Source: Hydrocarboniphaga daqingensis
GTDB lineage: Bacteria; Pseudomonadota; Gammaproteobacteria; Nevskiales; Nevskiaceae
Direction: 5' to 3'
Length of the DNA: 64,000 nt
Assembly (NCBI RefSeq): GCF_900129825.1
Contig: NZ_FQWZ01000001.1
Coordinates: forward strand, 186,001 to 250,000
Below, piece after piece: positions 11,244 to 63,871 of the stretch. The notes below the pieces were generated by a model, which was not told the origin of the DNA, searched no databases, and was given only the letters and a program-made list of their open reading frames with translations. The stretch's first letter is position 1; each line of letters begins with the position of its first letter. Made by a program: the position numbers and the translations under genes.

Positions 11244-12383
11244 ATGAAAACCATGCCAGCAACCAGCAGCAGCAGCCAACGCCTCGCTGCCCGGCCCGCG
11301 ATCGCCACGCAGTACACGAACTGGCTCGCCCGGCTAATGCTGTCGCGGATGTGGGAACGCCAGCACAACGTCGCGATGGACCCCCCTCGCCATATCAGCA
11401 CGACCACTCGCTGGCTCAGCAAAACATTGCTGCCGTCGCGGATCGACCGATCGGCCCCGATCAAGGCGCCGATCTTCATCCTCGGGACGCCGCGCTGCGG
11501 CTCGACGCTGCTGCAGGACCTGCTGTGCCGCCACGACCGTGTCGGCTACATCAACTACGGCATGGACCTGGTCCAGAATCCTGAGCTGTTCTATGCCGCA
11601 CACAAGCTGCGCACCACGCTCGGCCTCGACGTCAAAGGCGAGCGCTATCTACAAGACAGCATCATCGTCAACGGCGGCGCACCGGCCGAAGCGATGCGCT
11701 TTTGGGGCACCGCACTCAAACTCGACCCGCATGCGCTGACCTGGCCGCAGCGGCGCGCCAGTGACTTCAGCGCCGCCGAGATTGCCTTCGTGCAGGACAC
11801 GATTCGGCACGTGCTGTACTGCTTCCGCGACCAGGGCCGTGACCGCTTCCTGACCAAGTGCCCGGCGCTGCTGACGGAGCCGCTGCTGCTGCAGGACATC
11901 TTCCCGGACGCACGCTTCATTCATTTGGTACGCGATGGCCGCATGGTCGCCAACTCGCTGATCAAGCTCTACGACCTGCAGGTCGCGCAGGACATCGCGG
12001 TCGATCATCCGGTGTTTAAAACCGATCACTTCGTGCCGTATCCGCGCGTTCCCGGCCTGGAGGCGTGGATGAAGGAATACGGCCCGCGTGATCTGCGGAC
12101 GACCGCGCATATCTGGGATTCGGCGGTACGGTTCATCGGCTCGGTCCGCGGACAGCTACGGCACTTCCATGAGATCCGCTACGAAGACCTGTGCGCAGCA
12201 CCCGAGCAGCAACTCAACGAACTGCTCGATTTCTGCGAGCTGCCGCGTGCCGGCGCTGACAACACCGCGATGAAGGAGCGGCTGGGCCAGGTCGGCAGCG
12301 TGTCGCACGTGAACCACTACAGCGGCTTTGACGAGGTCGAGGCGATCGCTGCAGCCAGCTTGCATCAATACGGCTACATCTGA
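11244..12383 (+). CDS. Sulfotransferase family protein A
   Basis: 379 residues. The 5'-phosphosulfate-binding loop GTPRCGSTLLQ is at residues 81-91 and the 3'-phosphate-binding segment FIHLVRDGRMVANSL lies in the middle, both diagnostic of PAPS-dependent sulfotransferases. It is a close paralogue of sulfotransferase B (15186-16274): shared blocks include GERYL, EAMRFW, LLLQDIFPDARFIHLVRDGR, PYPRVPGLE and a YGYI C-terminus. It is convergent with the DarB-like ketosynthase gene and probably sulfates a small hydroxylated product of the neighbouring pathway. A shorter start at the ATG at 11253 is possible. Confidence 0.85.
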   Translation: MKTMPATSSSSQRLAARPAIATQYTNWLARLMLSRMWERQHNVAMDPPRHISTTTRWLSKTLLPSRIDRSAPIKAPIFILGTPRCGSTLLQDLLCRHDRVGYINYGMDLVQNPELFYAAHKLRTTLGLDVKGERYLQDSIIVNGGAPAEAMRFWGTALKLDPHALTWPQRRASDFSAAEIAFVQDTIRHVLYCFRDQGRDRFLTKCPALLTEPLLLQDIFPDARFIHLVRDGRMVANSLIKLYDLQVAQDIAVDHPVFKTDHFVPYPRVPGLEAWMKEYGPRDLRTTAHIWDSAVRFIGSVRGQLRHFHEIRYEDLCAAPEQQLNELLDFCELPRAGADNTAMKERLGQVGSVSHVNHYSGFDEVEAIAAASLHQYGYI

Positions 12384-15185: not shown

Positions 15186-16274
15186 CTAGTCGATGTAGCC
15201 ATACCGCCGCAGGCTGCCCCCTGCGATCGTCTCCACCACGTCGAATCCGGAATACTGATTCTGGTGCGCCACGACGCCGACTTGGCCGAGCTTGTCGTGG
15301 AACACTCGATGGCTCGCGTCGGGCATGTCGAGCCCGCAAAACTCAAGCAGTGCTGCAAGCTCGGTGCGTGGTGCCGCAACGAAGTCCTCGTAGCGCAGCT
15401 GATGGAAGTGCGGCAGATGCGGGCGAAACTCGTCGACCAGCTTGACCGACGAATCCCAGACGGTGGCCGTCACACGCAGATCGTCGACACCGTATTGCGC
15501 GATCGCCTGCTCCAAGCCGGGAACCCGCGGATACGGAATGAACGGCTTGGCGCGGAACAGCGGATGATCGACCTTGAGATCCTGCTCGCGCTGGCGCTGA
15601 TTGAGCTTGAGCAAAGAGTTGGCAACCATGCGGCCATCTCGTACGAGATGAATGAAGCGCGCGTCCGGGAAGATGTCCTGCAGCAGCAGCACTTCGGTCA
15701 GCAGCGCAGGGGACTTGTTCAGGAAGCGCATGCCGCGTCCGCCATTGAAGCAGGCGAGCACGTAGCGAATGGTGCGGCGGATCGAGTCGATCTGTTCGGG
15801 TTGAAAGTCGGCGATACGGCGCCGCGGCCACGTCAGCGCATAGGGATCGAGTTGCAACTGCTCCAACCAGAAGCGCATGGCCTCGGAGGGTGAATACGTA
15901 TCGACGAAAACGCTGTCCTTCAGGTAGCGCTCGCCGCGCACACTGAGGCCACTGTGGCGACTCATCCAGTCCACGGCCCGATACAGCGTGGGATCAACGA
16001 ATGAGCCCATTGCATGCGTGAAGTAGCCGATCGCCGGATGCGCCGACAACAAGTCCTGCAGCATCGTCGAGCCGCAGCGCGGTGTACCGATGATGAAGAT
16101 CGGCGCCTTGATCTCGACACCGTCGATGCGGGAGCGCAGCAGCGTCCGGCTCAGCAGCTTCATCACCGCGACGCGCGCCGGCGGCGCCGGCAACGTCACG
16201 ACGTGCTGGTTTTCCCATTGGTCAGCCAGCAAAAGCCTGGAGACCAGATTGCCGTACTGCGCGTCCGCGCCCAT
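15186..16274 (-). CDS. Sulfotransferase family protein B
   Basis: 362 residues from an ATG preceded by GGGAGGGCGG. The PAPS 5'-phosphosulfate loop GTPRCGSTMLQ is at residues 63-73 and the 3'-phosphate segment FIHLVRDGRMVANSLLKL follows. It is paralogous to sulfotransferase A along most of its length; both end in YGYI or YGYID. It is the first gene of the minus-strand operon, 47 nt upstream of the ACP, which ties sulfation to the ketosynthase pathway. Two paralogues suggest either two sulfation positions or a heterodimer. The acceptor is unknown. Confidence 0.87.
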   Translation of the reverse strand: MGADAQYGNLVSRLLLADQWENQHVVTLPAPPARVAVMKLLSRTLLRSRIDGVEIKAPIFIIGTPRCGSTMLQDLLSAHPAIGYFTHAMGSFVDPTLYRAVDWMSRHSGLSVRGERYLKDSVFVDTYSPSEAMRFWLEQLQLDPYALTWPRRRIADFQPEQIDSIRRTIRYVLACFNGGRGMRFLNKSPALLTEVLLLQDIFPDARFIHLVRDGRMVANSLLKLNQRQREQDLKVDHPLFRAKPFIPYPRVPGLEQAIAQYGVDDLRVTATVWDSSVKLVDEFRPHLPHFHQLRYEDFVAAPRTELAALLEFCGLDMPDASHRVFHDKLGQVGVVAHQNQYSGFDVVETIAGGSLRRYGYID

Positions 16275-60576: not shown

Positions 60577-61476
60577 ATGATGAGCGACCCCTGCCCCGCC
60601 CCGACGCCCTCACTATGGGACGGTCGCGCGCTCGAAACGCTGCTGCCGCTGGTGACCATCGGCCCCGACCGCTACGCCAGCACGGCGTCGGACGACAACT
60701 TCAACCGCCGCTTGTACGGCGGCCAGCTGCTCGGCCAGGCGCTGCTGGCCGCCGCCCAGACCGTGCCCGAAGGCCGTCGCGCCCACATGCTGCAAGCCTG
60801 CTTTTTGCGCGGCGCGGCGATCGACCAACCGTTGCGGTTCGACGTGCAACGGCTGCTCGACGGCGGCCGCTATTCGTCGCGCCATGTCCGCGTCACGCAA
60901 GCCGCGCACGCGGTGCTGGACGCGCAAGTGTCGTTTCAGGTGCCCAGCGACCCGCCGCAGCACCGCCGCACCGACGGGCCGGACGACGTGCCCGGCCCCG
61001 AGCAGCTGCGCGACATGGTCGACTTGGTCCGCGACGGCCAACACGGATTCGAGTTGCGGATGGTGCCGCTGGTCGAAAAGCACTGCGTCGAAATGCGCCC
61101 GGTCGACCCCGAGCGCTTCGTATTCCAGGCCGACGCTTCGGCGCGCCAGCGGTTCTGGCTGAGGCTGCGCGACGGCCTGCCCGAGGCGCCGGCACTGCAC
61201 GATGCGGCGCTGGCCTATCTGTCGGACTTTCTGGTCACGTACTGCAGCTACAGCCCGTACACATCGATGGTCGACATGCGCGACTTCTACGTCGCCAGCC
61301 TGAACCACGGCCTGTGGTTCCACGAAAACCTGCGCTACGACGATTGGCTGCTATTCGACTGCCAGAGCCCGGCCACCGGCCACGGCCGCGGCTTTGCCGT
61401 CGTGCAGATCTACGACCGCCAGCGGCGCCTGGTGGCCACGGCCACGCAGCAATGCACGCTCGGCGAGCGACGCTGA
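60577..61476 (+). CDS. tesB: Acyl-CoA thioesterase II
   Basis: 299 residues from the ATG at 60577 (60580 also possible). TesB double-hotdog features: FNRRLYGGQLLGQALLAAAQTVP in the first domain and FLVTYCSYSPY...MRDFYVASLNHGLWFHENLRYDDWLLFDCQSPATGHGRG in the second, with the catalytic Asp in the D-x-S/T context. It cleaves medium- and long-chain acyl-CoAs. Its 3' end is followed by one copy of the repeat that marks the Fic insertion. Confidence 0.9.
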   Translation: MMSDPCPAPTPSLWDGRALETLLPLVTIGPDRYASTASDDNFNRRLYGGQLLGQALLAAAQTVPEGRRAHMLQACFLRGAAIDQPLRFDVQRLLDGGRYSSRHVRVTQAAHAVLDAQVSFQVPSDPPQHRRTDGPDDVPGPEQLRDMVDLVRDGQHGFELRMVPLVEKHCVEMRPVDPERFVFQADASARQRFWLRLRDGLPEAPALHDAALAYLSDFLVTYCSYSPYTSMVDMRDFYVASLNHGLWFHENLRYDDWLLFDCQSPATGHGRGFAVVQIYDRQRRLVATATQQCTLGERR

Positions 61477-61483
61477 GTCCCAC

Positions 61484-61509
61484 GCTTCAGAACCGTAGCT
61501 CGCTCTGCG
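61484..61509. repeat. Left copy of a 26-bp direct repeat (dinB 3'-end stub)
   Basis: Identical over 26 bp to 62795-62820. On the minus strand it spells the last codons and stop of dinB (SELRF then TGA), and adjacent bases on both sides remain partly similar. It lies immediately after tesB and looks like a leftover dinB end created by insertion of the Fic segment. Confidence 0.8.
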
Positions 61510-61562
61510 ACGGGAGCATGGTTCGCTAGCGCAGCGCTGGCATCGATCGCGAAACGGTCGAC

Positions 61563-61616
61563 GATCTATACATGAGGCATCCAATATGCATAGAAATAAG
61601 CCATGATCTATACATG
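61563..61616. repeat. Pair of 12-bp direct repeats upstream of the Fic gene
   Basis: GATCTATACATG occurs at 61563-61574 and 61605-61616, 42 bp apart start to start (about four helical turns), in a locally AT-rich stretch 30 nt upstream of the Fic ATG. This is a good place for a regulator or for an autoregulatory Fic C-terminal helix-turn-helix to bind. Confidence 0.5.
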
Positions 61617-61645
61617 TTGAACCGCCCGGCTGCGAAACCCGCCCC

Positions 61646-62746
61646 ATGAGACTCTCATTCGCGCCACCGCCGTTGGAAAGCCTGGACCCAGCGCGGTTCG
61701 AAAGTGCGGCCATTCTGAAAAAGCTGGTCGCCGCTCACCGGCGGCTGGCGGAGTTCAAAGGCGTGGCGGCCTCCATGCCGAACCAGGGTGTGTTGATCAG
61801 CACGCTGAGCCTGCAGGAAGCCAAGGACAGCTCCGAGATCGAAAACATCGTGACCACGCACGATGAGTTGTTCCGCGAAGCGGCAGACATCGATGCCGTC
61901 AACGCAAGCCCGGCCGCCAAGGAAGTGGCGCTCTACAGCCACGCGCTGCGCGTCGGCTTTCAATCGGTGGCGGCAACCGGCCTGCTGACCGGCAATCACA
62001 TTCTGGAGATTCAGGCGGCGCTCGAGAGAAACCGCCCCGGCTACAGAACGGTGCCGGGCACCACGCTCAAGGACCGAGGCACCGGTCGGGTGATCTATAC
62101 CCCGCCGACGCCGGACCTGCTGCCGGGCCTGATGTCCGACCTCGAACACTTCATCAACGACGACGGCCGCTACGCAGCCGACCCGCTAGTGAAGATGGCG
62201 CTGATCCACCATCAGTTCGAGAGCATCCATCCGTTCAATGACGGCAACGGTCGTACCGGCCGCATCGTTAATGTGCTGTATCTGGTCAAGATGGGGCTGC
62301 TGGATATTCCCGTGCTGTATCTGAGTCGCGCCATCGTCGGAACCAAGGCTGACTACTACCGTCTGCTGCAAAGCGTGCGTGACACCGGCGACTGGGAAAC
62401 CTGGGTGATGTATTTGCTTGATGCCGTCGAAAGCACCGCTGCCCAGGGCATCACGACGATCCAGGCCATCAAGGCACTGCTGCTGGACACCAAGCACCGC
62501 ATCCGCAGCCAGCACCGCTTCTACAGCCAAGACCTGATCAACAACCTGTTATCGCATCCGTACACCAAAATCGAGTTTCTGATGCGCGACTTGAAGGTGT
62601 CCCGCATCACGGCCACGCGCTATCTGGATCTGTTGGCGGCCGATGGTTTCCTGCGCAAACGCAAGATCGGGCGCAGCAACTACTACATCAACGATCCGCT
62701 GTTCCGCATTCTGACCGGCGAGGCCGCTCCGGCAGGCGAACGCTGA
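61646..62746 (+). CDS. Fic-domain protein (AMP-transferase type) with C-terminal winged helix
   Basis: 366 residues. The Fic active-site motif HPFNDGNGRTGR is complete at residues 195-206 and the catalytic His is His195. An N-terminal inhibitory motif of the (S/T)xxxE(G/N) type is seen as SSEIEN (residues 62-67), as in class II Fic proteins. The C-terminus (about 280-355, MRDLKVSRITATRYLDLLAADGFLRKRKIGRSNYY) is a winged helix-turn-helix. Fic enzymes transfer AMP to target proteins. It is flanked by dinB-end repeats, indicating acquisition. No separate antitoxin gene is visible. Confidence 0.92.
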   Translation: MRLSFAPPPLESLDPARFESAAILKKLVAAHRRLAEFKGVAASMPNQGVLISTLSLQEAKDSSEIENIVTTHDELFREAADIDAVNASPAAKEVALYSHALRVGFQSVAATGLLTGNHILEIQAALERNRPGYRTVPGTTLKDRGTGRVIYTPPTPDLLPGLMSDLEHFINDDGRYAADPLVKMALIHHQFESIHPFNDGNGRTGRIVNVLYLVKMGLLDIPVLYLSRAIVGTKADYYRLLQSVRDTGDWETWVMYLLDAVESTAAQGITTIQAIKALLLDTKHRIRSQHRFYSQDLINNLLSHPYTKIEFLMRDLKVSRITATRYLDLLAADGFLRKRKIGRSNYYINDPLFRILTGEAAPAGER

Positions 62747-62794
62747 CGCTCGCGACCCGGAACGACGCCGAGCCCATCGACAGCTGAGCCACGC

Positions 62795-62820
62795 GCTTCA
62801 GAACCGTAGCTCGCTCTGCG
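62795..62820. repeat. Right copy of the 26-bp direct repeat, inside the dinB 3' end
   Basis: Identical to 61484-61509. This copy is the genuine C-terminal coding end of dinB and its stop region, so the Fic-bearing segment of about 1.3 kb lies between two copies of the target. Confidence 0.8.
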
Positions 62821-63871
62821 GCTCGGCGACGGCATCCGGGTGGCCCGGATCGGTGAAGTTGCCGAGGCCGACTCCAACCAGTCGATAGCGGGTCTCGGGG
62901 TCCAGCTCGACGCGCTCACGCAGGTTCAGCGCGATATCGCGGAACGCGGCCAGTGTGTCGGGCGGCGTCGGTGGCGTGTGGCTGCGCGTCAGAATCCGGA
63001 AGTCGGCGGTCTTGAGCTTGAGCACAACGGTGCGACCGATCCGTGCGGTCTTGCGGGATGCCGCCCATGCCTTGTCGGCCAGCGCCTCGATATGCGGCGC
63101 CAGCTGCGACAGCGGCAGGTCCTCGCGAAACGTGTCTTCGGCCGACACCGACTGCGTGGGCCGATCGGGCTTGACCGTGCTGTGGTCGATGCCCTGCGAC
63201 AGCTGGTGCAGCCGCGCGCCGTAACGGCCGAAGCGTTGCTCCAGCTCGGCCAAGGGCACCCGTTGCAGGTCACCACAAGTAGCGACGCCGATCGCCGCCA
63301 GCCGCTCGCCGGTGACCTTGCCGACACCTGGCAAGCGCGTCACCGGCAGCGTCGGCATGAATGCATCGACCTCTTCGGGGCGGATCACGAACAGACCGTC
63401 GGGCTTGTTCCAGTCCGACGCGATCTTGGCCAGGAACTTGTTCGGCGCGACGCCCGCCGATGCGGTCAGCGACAGCTCGGTGCGGATCTGTTCGCGGATG
63501 GCCTTGGCGACGCGGGTCGCGGTTGGCAGGCCGGTCTTGTTATCGGTGACGTCCAGATACGCCTCGTCGAGCGACAAGGGCTCGACCAGGTCGGTATGCC
63601 GCAGCATGATCTCGCGCACCGCGCGTGATACCGCACGATAGCGGTTGAAGTCGGGCGCGACGAACACCGCATCGGGGCATAGGCGCTCGGCGCGCACGGC
63701 CGGCATCGCCGAGCGGATGCCGTAGCGCCGCGCCTCATAGGAGGCCGCGCAGACCACCGATCGCTGACCGCGCCACGCAACAACCACGGGCCGACCGCGC
63801 AGCTGCGGGTCGTCGCGCTGTTCCACCGATGCGTAGAACGCATCCATGTCGACATGGATGATCTTGCGCAC
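62798..63871 (-). CDS. dinB: DNA polymerase IV (Y-family)
   Basis: 357 residues from a GTG at 63871. The Y-family motifs are present: HVDMDAFYASVEQRDDP (with catalytic Asp), DEAYLDVTDNK with SLDEAYLD, and KFLAKIASDWNKPDG; the helix-hairpin-helix region PGVGKVTGERLAAIGV follows. It performs error-prone translesion synthesis. The last residues (SELRF) are duplicated at 61484-61509. It starts 15 nt after the stop of the upstream partial gene, so it may share its transcript. No LexA box was seen. Confidence 0.95.
   Translation of the reverse strand: MRKIIHVDMDAFYASVEQRDDPQLRGRPVVVAWRGQRSVVCAASYEARRYGIRSAMPAVRAERLCPDAVFVAPDFNRYRAVSRAVREIMLRHTDLVEPLSLDEAYLDVTDNKTGLPTATRVAKAIREQIRTELSLTASAGVAPNKFLAKIASDWNKPDGLFVIRPEEVDAFMPTLPVTRLPGVGKVTGERLAAIGVATCGDLQRVPLAELEQRFGRYGARLHQLSQGIDHSTVKPDRPTQSVSAEDTFREDLPLSQLAPHIEALADKAWAASRKTARIGRTVVLKLKTADFRILTRSHTPPTPPDTLAAFRDIALNLRERVELDPETRYRLVGVGLGNFTDPGHPDAVAEPQSELRF

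Follow-up and report, generated by a model that had tools for sequence, protein, structure and literature searches.

A fic gene of the SoFic type in Hydrocarboniphaga daqingensis sits on the breakpoint of a reciprocal chromosome rearrangement, between a tesB-like gene and dinB, and is enclosed by a direct repeat of the dinB 3' end. The explanation that we favour, with confidence a little above even, is that the rearrangement came first and that fic, together with an operator of its own, was subsequently acquired at the tesB-dinB junction with duplication of the target. Each component of the locus is of a known kind, and its control sequences suggest that SoFic genes may regulate themselves. 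The sequence analysed, hereafter the window, is a stretch of 64,000 nt (C2:186001-250000, contig NZ_FQWZ01000001.1) of assembly GCF_900129825.1, a 3.79 Mb draft in 13 contigs that is 99.3% complete and is referred to here as G000. It was compared with the 57 other genomes of its family (58 with G000) and with the 85 genomes of its order, G000 included. The features of the locus are collected in Table 1.

Table 1. Features of the tesB-fic-dinB locus, in window coordinates
Feature	Position	Strand	Remarks
tesB-like acyl-CoA thioesterase	60580..61476	+	left border; Pfam PF02551/PF20789/PF13622
left repeat copy	61472..61509	-	includes the tesB stop and, a few bases on, a non-coding duplicate of the end of dinB; exact core of 27 nt at 61483-61509
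spacer, 52 bases, origin unassigned	61510..61561	.	between left repeat and putative operator; not within the segment that is homologous, at the nucleotide level, to the closest relative of fic
putative operator (half-site array)	61562..61616	+	half-sites are given in the text
fic, SoFic-type class II Fic adenylyltransferase, 366 aa, C-terminal winged helix	61646..62746	+	
36-base gap	62747..62782	.	fic stop to right repeat
right repeat copy	62783..62820	-	genuine dinB 3' end and bases past the stop; 27-nt exact core 62794-62820
dinB, DNA polymerase IV, intact	62798..63871	-	right border; NCBIfam NF002677 (PRK02406) 456.8 bits, cut-off 256

The first-pass annotation of the window had described a 26-bp exact repeat on either side of fic, encoding the last codons and stop of dinB, and the repeat is indeed present, its exact core being one base longer at 27 nt. 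The whole direct repeat covers 38 nt at 92% identity, with mismatches at three of the 11 bases that lie outside the core. No other exact direct repeat of at least 20 nt occurs in the 64-kb window, and the longest repeats in 20 simulated windows of the same dinucleotide make-up measured 16-18 nt as against 27 nt. Read on the minus strand, the repeat consists of the last six codons of dinB (QSELRF), its stop and a few of the bases that follow. The right copy belongs to dinB itself, which is left intact, and a non-coding fragment that comes straight after the tesB stop forms the left copy. When other copies were sought, as the annotation had advised, the 26-nt core was found twice in G000, with no third copy at up to three mismatches. 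The weaker similarity said to extend beyond the repeat was confirmed on one side and not on the other: next to the tesB stop, the 12 bases adjoining the core include 8 matches, a level reached at 285 of the 63,988 window positions, and a gapped test of flank similarity gave 65 of 3000 there and 2229 of 3000, that is no similarity, on the opposite side. The extension is weakly significant, and the duplication may span the tesB-dinB junction. Elsewhere in the window a ketoacyl-synthase gene and an ACP synthase III-like gene are enclosed by two oppositely oriented genes of the sulfotransferase family (11244-12383, plus strand, and 15186-16274, minus strand). These two genes give rise to inverted repeats, one of 239 nt (79%) and one of 68 nt (91%), through which the segment between them might invert.

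The content of the insert agrees with the earlier description, there being one recognisable gene, fic, on the plus strand and an AT-rich stretch upstream of it (61562-61645, GC 0.49); five minus-strand ORFs that overlap fic or the insert ends match no Pfam family at E 0.01. The statement that no integrase or insertion sequence lies inside also holds, neither an integrase nor a transposase being found among the ORFs of at least 60 aa or the Pfam matches. An insertion sequence or transposon was rejected on the lack of a transposase and because none of the 25 inverted pairs shown (of 35) joins the insert ends. An integron cassette was likewise rejected, since 61400-62900 contains no RYYYAAC and one GTTRRRY (at 61616), and attC was not found.

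The annotation had looked to related genomes for an empty tesB-dinB site with one copy of the repeat. None was found in the congeners examined, the closest of which has tesB next to YbhN and dinB next to a BON gene and RssA; nor is fic present between tesB and dinB throughout the relatives, the finding that had been named beforehand as contrary to an insertion. A pattern scan of contigs with a tesB protein matched 48 stretches, none of which was confirmed as a relative. On contig 75 of G001 the tesB orthologue (70% identical) is followed within ~11 bases by YbhN (LPG_synthase_TM), not by dinB, and on contig 105 dinB is followed by the BON gene and then by the patatin RssA, an order common to G001, G002 and G003. 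The tesB-dinB neighbourhood of G000 is thus the product of a rearrangement. In G000 tesB-fic-dinB is carried on contig 2, and the YbhN and RssA orthologues lie side by side on another contig, contig 6, at 187.0-187.9 and 188.1-189.0 kb. G001 proteins were mapped to the fetched stretches of G000, namely 166-344 kb of contig 2 and 178-198 kb of contig 6. From 4 to 91 kb, G001 contig 75 is colinear, with gaps, with G000 contig 2 from 172.6 to 247.5 kb, ending at tesB (placed by a separate search), and from 3 to 113 kb G001 contig 105 is colinear, again with gaps, with 304-248.8 kb of the same contig, ending at dinB; the largest gap is an unmatched segment of G001 contig 105 at 45.3-92.7 kb. The colinear blocks are of ~75 and ~55 kb, and both series jump to contig 6 exactly at tesB and dinB. 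The BON gene has best matches of 34-37% in G000 as against 61-62% in G001 and G002. It is on this reciprocal rearrangement breakpoint that fic sits. G000 represents the derived state, since the dinB-BON-RssA order is found in G002 as well as G003, and in G002 YbhN lies beside the reductase and aceB genes that in G000 precede tesB. A simple inversion was considered and rejected, the gene order of G002 not being what one inversion would start from, and as the contigs are in addition unplaced the event is claimed only as a reciprocal rearrangement. Between its two junctions there is short local similarity only (raw scores 21 and 19). Misassembly at the repeat might be suspected, G000 being a 13-contig draft known here from its contigs without reads, but it is very improbable, given that the junctions are reciprocal, mid-contig and gene-precise and that the repeat core occurs only twice in the genome.

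The favoured sequence of events would begin with a large reciprocal rearrangement, visible in the comparison with congeners, that joined tesB to dinB and YbhN to RssA. The tesB-dinB junction would then have acquired one module, a SoFic gene with its own operator, and the insertion would have duplicated at least 27 bp, and possibly ~38 bp, of that junction, leaving dinB whole and a defunct duplicate of its end next to tesB. We infer that the mechanism was illegitimate recombination with a longish target duplication, as for restriction-modification (RM) genes, rather than the action of a self-mobile element. That the repeat continues, if weakly, into the tesB stop fits the duplication of a junction that already existed. 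No relative with an empty tesB-dinB junction was found, and fic may have arrived either with the rearrangement or after it. A rather unlikely variant is that one event did both, repair of the break that joined tesB to dinB having also captured fic, for example by a template switch from the dinB end to a fic fragment and back. That fic and its repeat lie precisely on the breakpoint, where the BON gene is missing, would suit such an event, as would the location of the fic gene of G071, in the trp genes, likewise at a point where identity to a congener changes. No evidence distinguishes one event from two steps, but the slight resemblance between the right copy and the tesB stop favours a tesB-dinB junction that was there beforehand.

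The proposal that fic had been inserted stands in so far as the gene is accessory and patchy, being present in 15 of the 85 genomes of the order (G000 included, E 1e-60), and dinB is intact. It does not stand as regards the dinB end as a recurrent target: at 27 other dinB loci of the order, scanned up to ~9 kb downstream and less at contig ends, there was not one copy of the dinB end of at least 20 nt. Exact direct repeats of 39 nt and 37 nt, possibly dispersed repeats, were seen a few hundred bases past the dinB stop at two loci, L160 (G006) and L163 (G029). An exact core at the 3' end of a gene that is kept intact is the usual anatomy of site-specific islands, and the 27 nt of identity at the end of dinB could accordingly be read as the attL and attR of an island that has lost its integrase and most of its cargo. 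We regard such a relic as improbable: no integrase lies inside, the dinB end is duplicated at none of the 27 other loci, the 26-nt core is absent from all 57 other family genomes (at up to three mismatches) and gave no match in an exact IMG/VR scan, and 61461-61561 has no phage match at E 1. In the parts of the literature consulted, work tying dinB to an attachment site, a genomic island and an integrase is scarce. Nor was an exact direct repeat of more than 14 nt found across fic at any of 11 other fic loci scanned, which ties the repeat to this one insertion rather than to a mobile unit, and indicates that the mode is not a recurrent one. A repeat of 98 nt (70%) flanking fic in G014 (L113, G014:C16, 5134-5231 and 6709-6806) was rejected as a parallel case and left uncounted, being internal to a neighbouring gene and not at a 3' end. 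Of its two copies the right one falls within an NAD(P)H-binding-type gene (slightly under the Pfam cut-off), and across fic from it, adjacent to hsdM, stands a remnant of a related gene.

The composition of fic sets it apart from its surroundings, with a GC content of 0.609 compared with 0.668-0.692 in five neighbours and a GC3 of 0.798 compared with 0.841-0.908. The codon-usage comparison that the annotation had suggested did not single it out, fic falling outside the 12 most deviant of the 44 window ORFs, some of them spurious, and since the codon bias is not strongly deviant it is GC that we cite as the sign of foreignness. The best relative of fic in the order (87% aa identity) is in another genus, in G071, where the adjoining trpG is 64% identical to that of G000, and nucleotide homology between the two fic genes is limited to 61562-62748, that is to the operator and the ORF. 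The G071 fic (L137, G071:C105, 2987-4730) sits between trpE and trpG, and across it the identity of the contig to the congener G070 switches from 85% on the trpE side to 65% on the trpG side. The contig may be recombinant, chimeric or misassembled, or a contaminant, and this doubt weakens the argument for transfer. About 80 bases before the G071 fic resemble, by eye, the tail of the gene that fic follows in G024 and G063; in G063 that gene has no Pfam domain at E 1e-10. Horizontal acquisition of fic is supported, with no donor assigned.

ORFs were listed around 12 other fic loci, and the neighbours were searched at five of these (G024, G063, G014, G076 and the second SoFic of G000). A DNA methylase is next to or near fic at all five, from which the window fic differs in standing alone. 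The second SoFic-type gene of G000 (L111, G000:C6:330000-339999; fic at C6:333877-334911) is 45% identical to the first and is flanked by an SNF2/helicase gene and an N6_N4 DNA methylase, and the array upstream of it differs (TCGACATG). In G002 (C1:1435977-1437059) and G045 (C4:96552-97610) fic has an in-frame stop codon, which suggests decay of this accessory gene in some lineages. SoFic-like genes are known on plasmids (262 records at E 1e-40), with a DNA methyltransferase beside fic in 4 of the 14 plasmid loci fetched. A further origin would be recombination, through the short homology, with incoming DNA that brought fic already attached to a dinB end; a crossover might need no more than 27 identical bases, and plasmids would be one conceivable vehicle. 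Such an origin is more improbable still than an island relic: no donor with fic joined to a dinB end was seen, dinB is listed beside fic in none of 13 annotated plasmid loci fetched, and dinB and fic (at least 60% identical) are on different contigs in all five other genomes in which both were located (G024, G014, G002, G018 and G035).

The product of fic contains, in order, the Pfam domains PF13784 (Fic_N), PF02661 (Fic) and PF21248 (SoFic-like_C), all above their gathering cut-offs. Residues 7-357 match the PADLOC SoFic model PDLC03963, which comes without a stated cut-off, at E 6.6e-113 and 375.7 bits, and residues 6-358 align with solved SoFic structures, the relatives being 3EQX, 3ZCN and 9TC4; for four solved SoFic entries numbered 9T.. 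no associated paper was found. The catalytic motif HPFx[D/E]GN[G/K]R is present as HPFNDGNGRTGR at residue 195, and the inhibitory-type motif SSEIEN at residue 62 fits [S/T]xxxE[G/N], which we take to be the class II inhibitory pattern. Against the NCBIfam SoFic equivalog NF046030 the product scores 342.8 bits, below the cut-off of 550, and it is therefore named a SoFic-type homologue and not an equivalog. To judge from its family alone, it is most likely a dormant AMPylating toxin that would be freed by phage infection.

Upstream of fic, half-sites alternate in orientation, with ATCTATACAT at 61564-61573, an inverted ATGCATAGAA at 61586-61595 and ATCTATACAT again at 61606-61615, the direct copies being 42 bases apart. 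The exact 11-mer ATCTATACATG occurs at only two places in 3.79 Mb, both of them upstream of fic; at one mismatch there are 11 further places, compared with 4 for a reversed-pattern control. Three 42-nt units stand in tandem upstream of fic in G014, and six loci (G000, G071, G024, G014, G045 and Azotobacter salinestris) show the 42-base direct spacing among their best-scoring sites. An array was scored as present when an inverted pair with a third half-site was equalled in no more than 10 of 200 dinucleotide shuffles (60 in a first run). On this basis 26 of 30 SoFic upstream regions passed, compared with 4 of 59 control windows drawn from these loci, and in 13 of the 30 no shuffle matched the array; G063, G002, G018 and Pontibacter do not beat the shuffles. 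Sixteen of the 30 loci are all the matches listed in the search of the order, including the window fic and the second SoFic of G000, and the other 14 are plasmid loci chosen from the 262 records, from Gammaproteobacteria, Alphaproteobacteria, Bacteroidota and one cyanobacterium; as related sequences are not independent, these figures are counts and not probabilities. The half-site varies by subfamily, being CTATACATG-like in close relatives, TCGACATG-like in a second SoFic group (L086, L069, L124) and TTTCTTTGCA in G045.

Conserved arrays upstream of SoFic genes predict self-repression through the C-terminal winged helix. We give an even chance to the proposal that SoFic-type Fics repress their own genes, the winged helix binding an alternating half-site array whose direct copies keep a 42-base spacing in several relatives and whose half-sites differ between subfamilies, and that operator and ORF are transferred as one unit, under control without a separate antitoxin. 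The window Fic would probably keep its own level low in this way, its winged helix being predicted to occupy the upstream array, and, if so, loss of DNA contact would couple transcriptional release to release of the toxin. It was suggested in 2009 that HTH domains fused to fic may regulate fic expression (PMC2686095), and a passage of a 2023 paper called DNA binding by SoFic undemonstrated (PMC10628234). Among the matches listed, the titles and opening lines of abstracts on Fic autoregulation and operators contain no report of such arrays. The arrays suggest how SoFic toxicity might be restrained in uninfected cells, and the suggestion can be tested directly.

The closest parallel to such control is CccR of Yersinia pseudotuberculosis, described as a Fic protein that carries an HTH at its C-terminus and, acting on inverted repeats, represses the promoter of its own gene (PMC9755527). 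As in CccR, the window gene encodes a Fic enzyme whose C-terminus has a DNA-binding domain, and inverted repeats lie in its promoter, but the CccR site consists of 10-bp inverted repeats with a 26-bp spacer, whereas the window fic has alternating putative half-sites of other sequence with direct copies 42 bases apart. Passages of the 2025 Sofic paper describe EcSofic as an AMPylase that is toxic, forms dimers and acts against phages, with the gene of a small antitoxin (AS1) downstream, call the mechanism of AS1 unknown and leave Sofic regulation partly open (PMC12249575). With S. oneidensis SoFic and EcSofic the window protein shares the Fic_N, Fic and winged-helix domains, the catalytic and inhibitory motifs and the PADLOC SoFic match; it differs in falling below the equivalog cut-off and in having no AS1-like gene downstream, the gap between the fic stop and the right repeat leaving no space for an antitoxin gene of that kind. 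With regard to the manner of insertion, Nobusato et al. in 2000 reportedly described "insertion with long target duplication" of RM genes. Such genes are stated, in portions of two papers, to insert with long target duplications and have been linked to inversions or translocations (PMC3031569, PMC1643837). The fic locus differs from these insertions in that a lone SoFic gene is concerned, the duplication is a short one of 27-38 bp, the site is a rearrangement breakpoint and no empty-site allele was found; it resembles them in that a defence-type gene without a recombinase is bounded by a direct repeat made from its target. A single defence gene that occupies a rearrangement breakpoint, shows a target duplication and has no recombinase would extend the insertion mode of RM genes to an AMPylating toxin.
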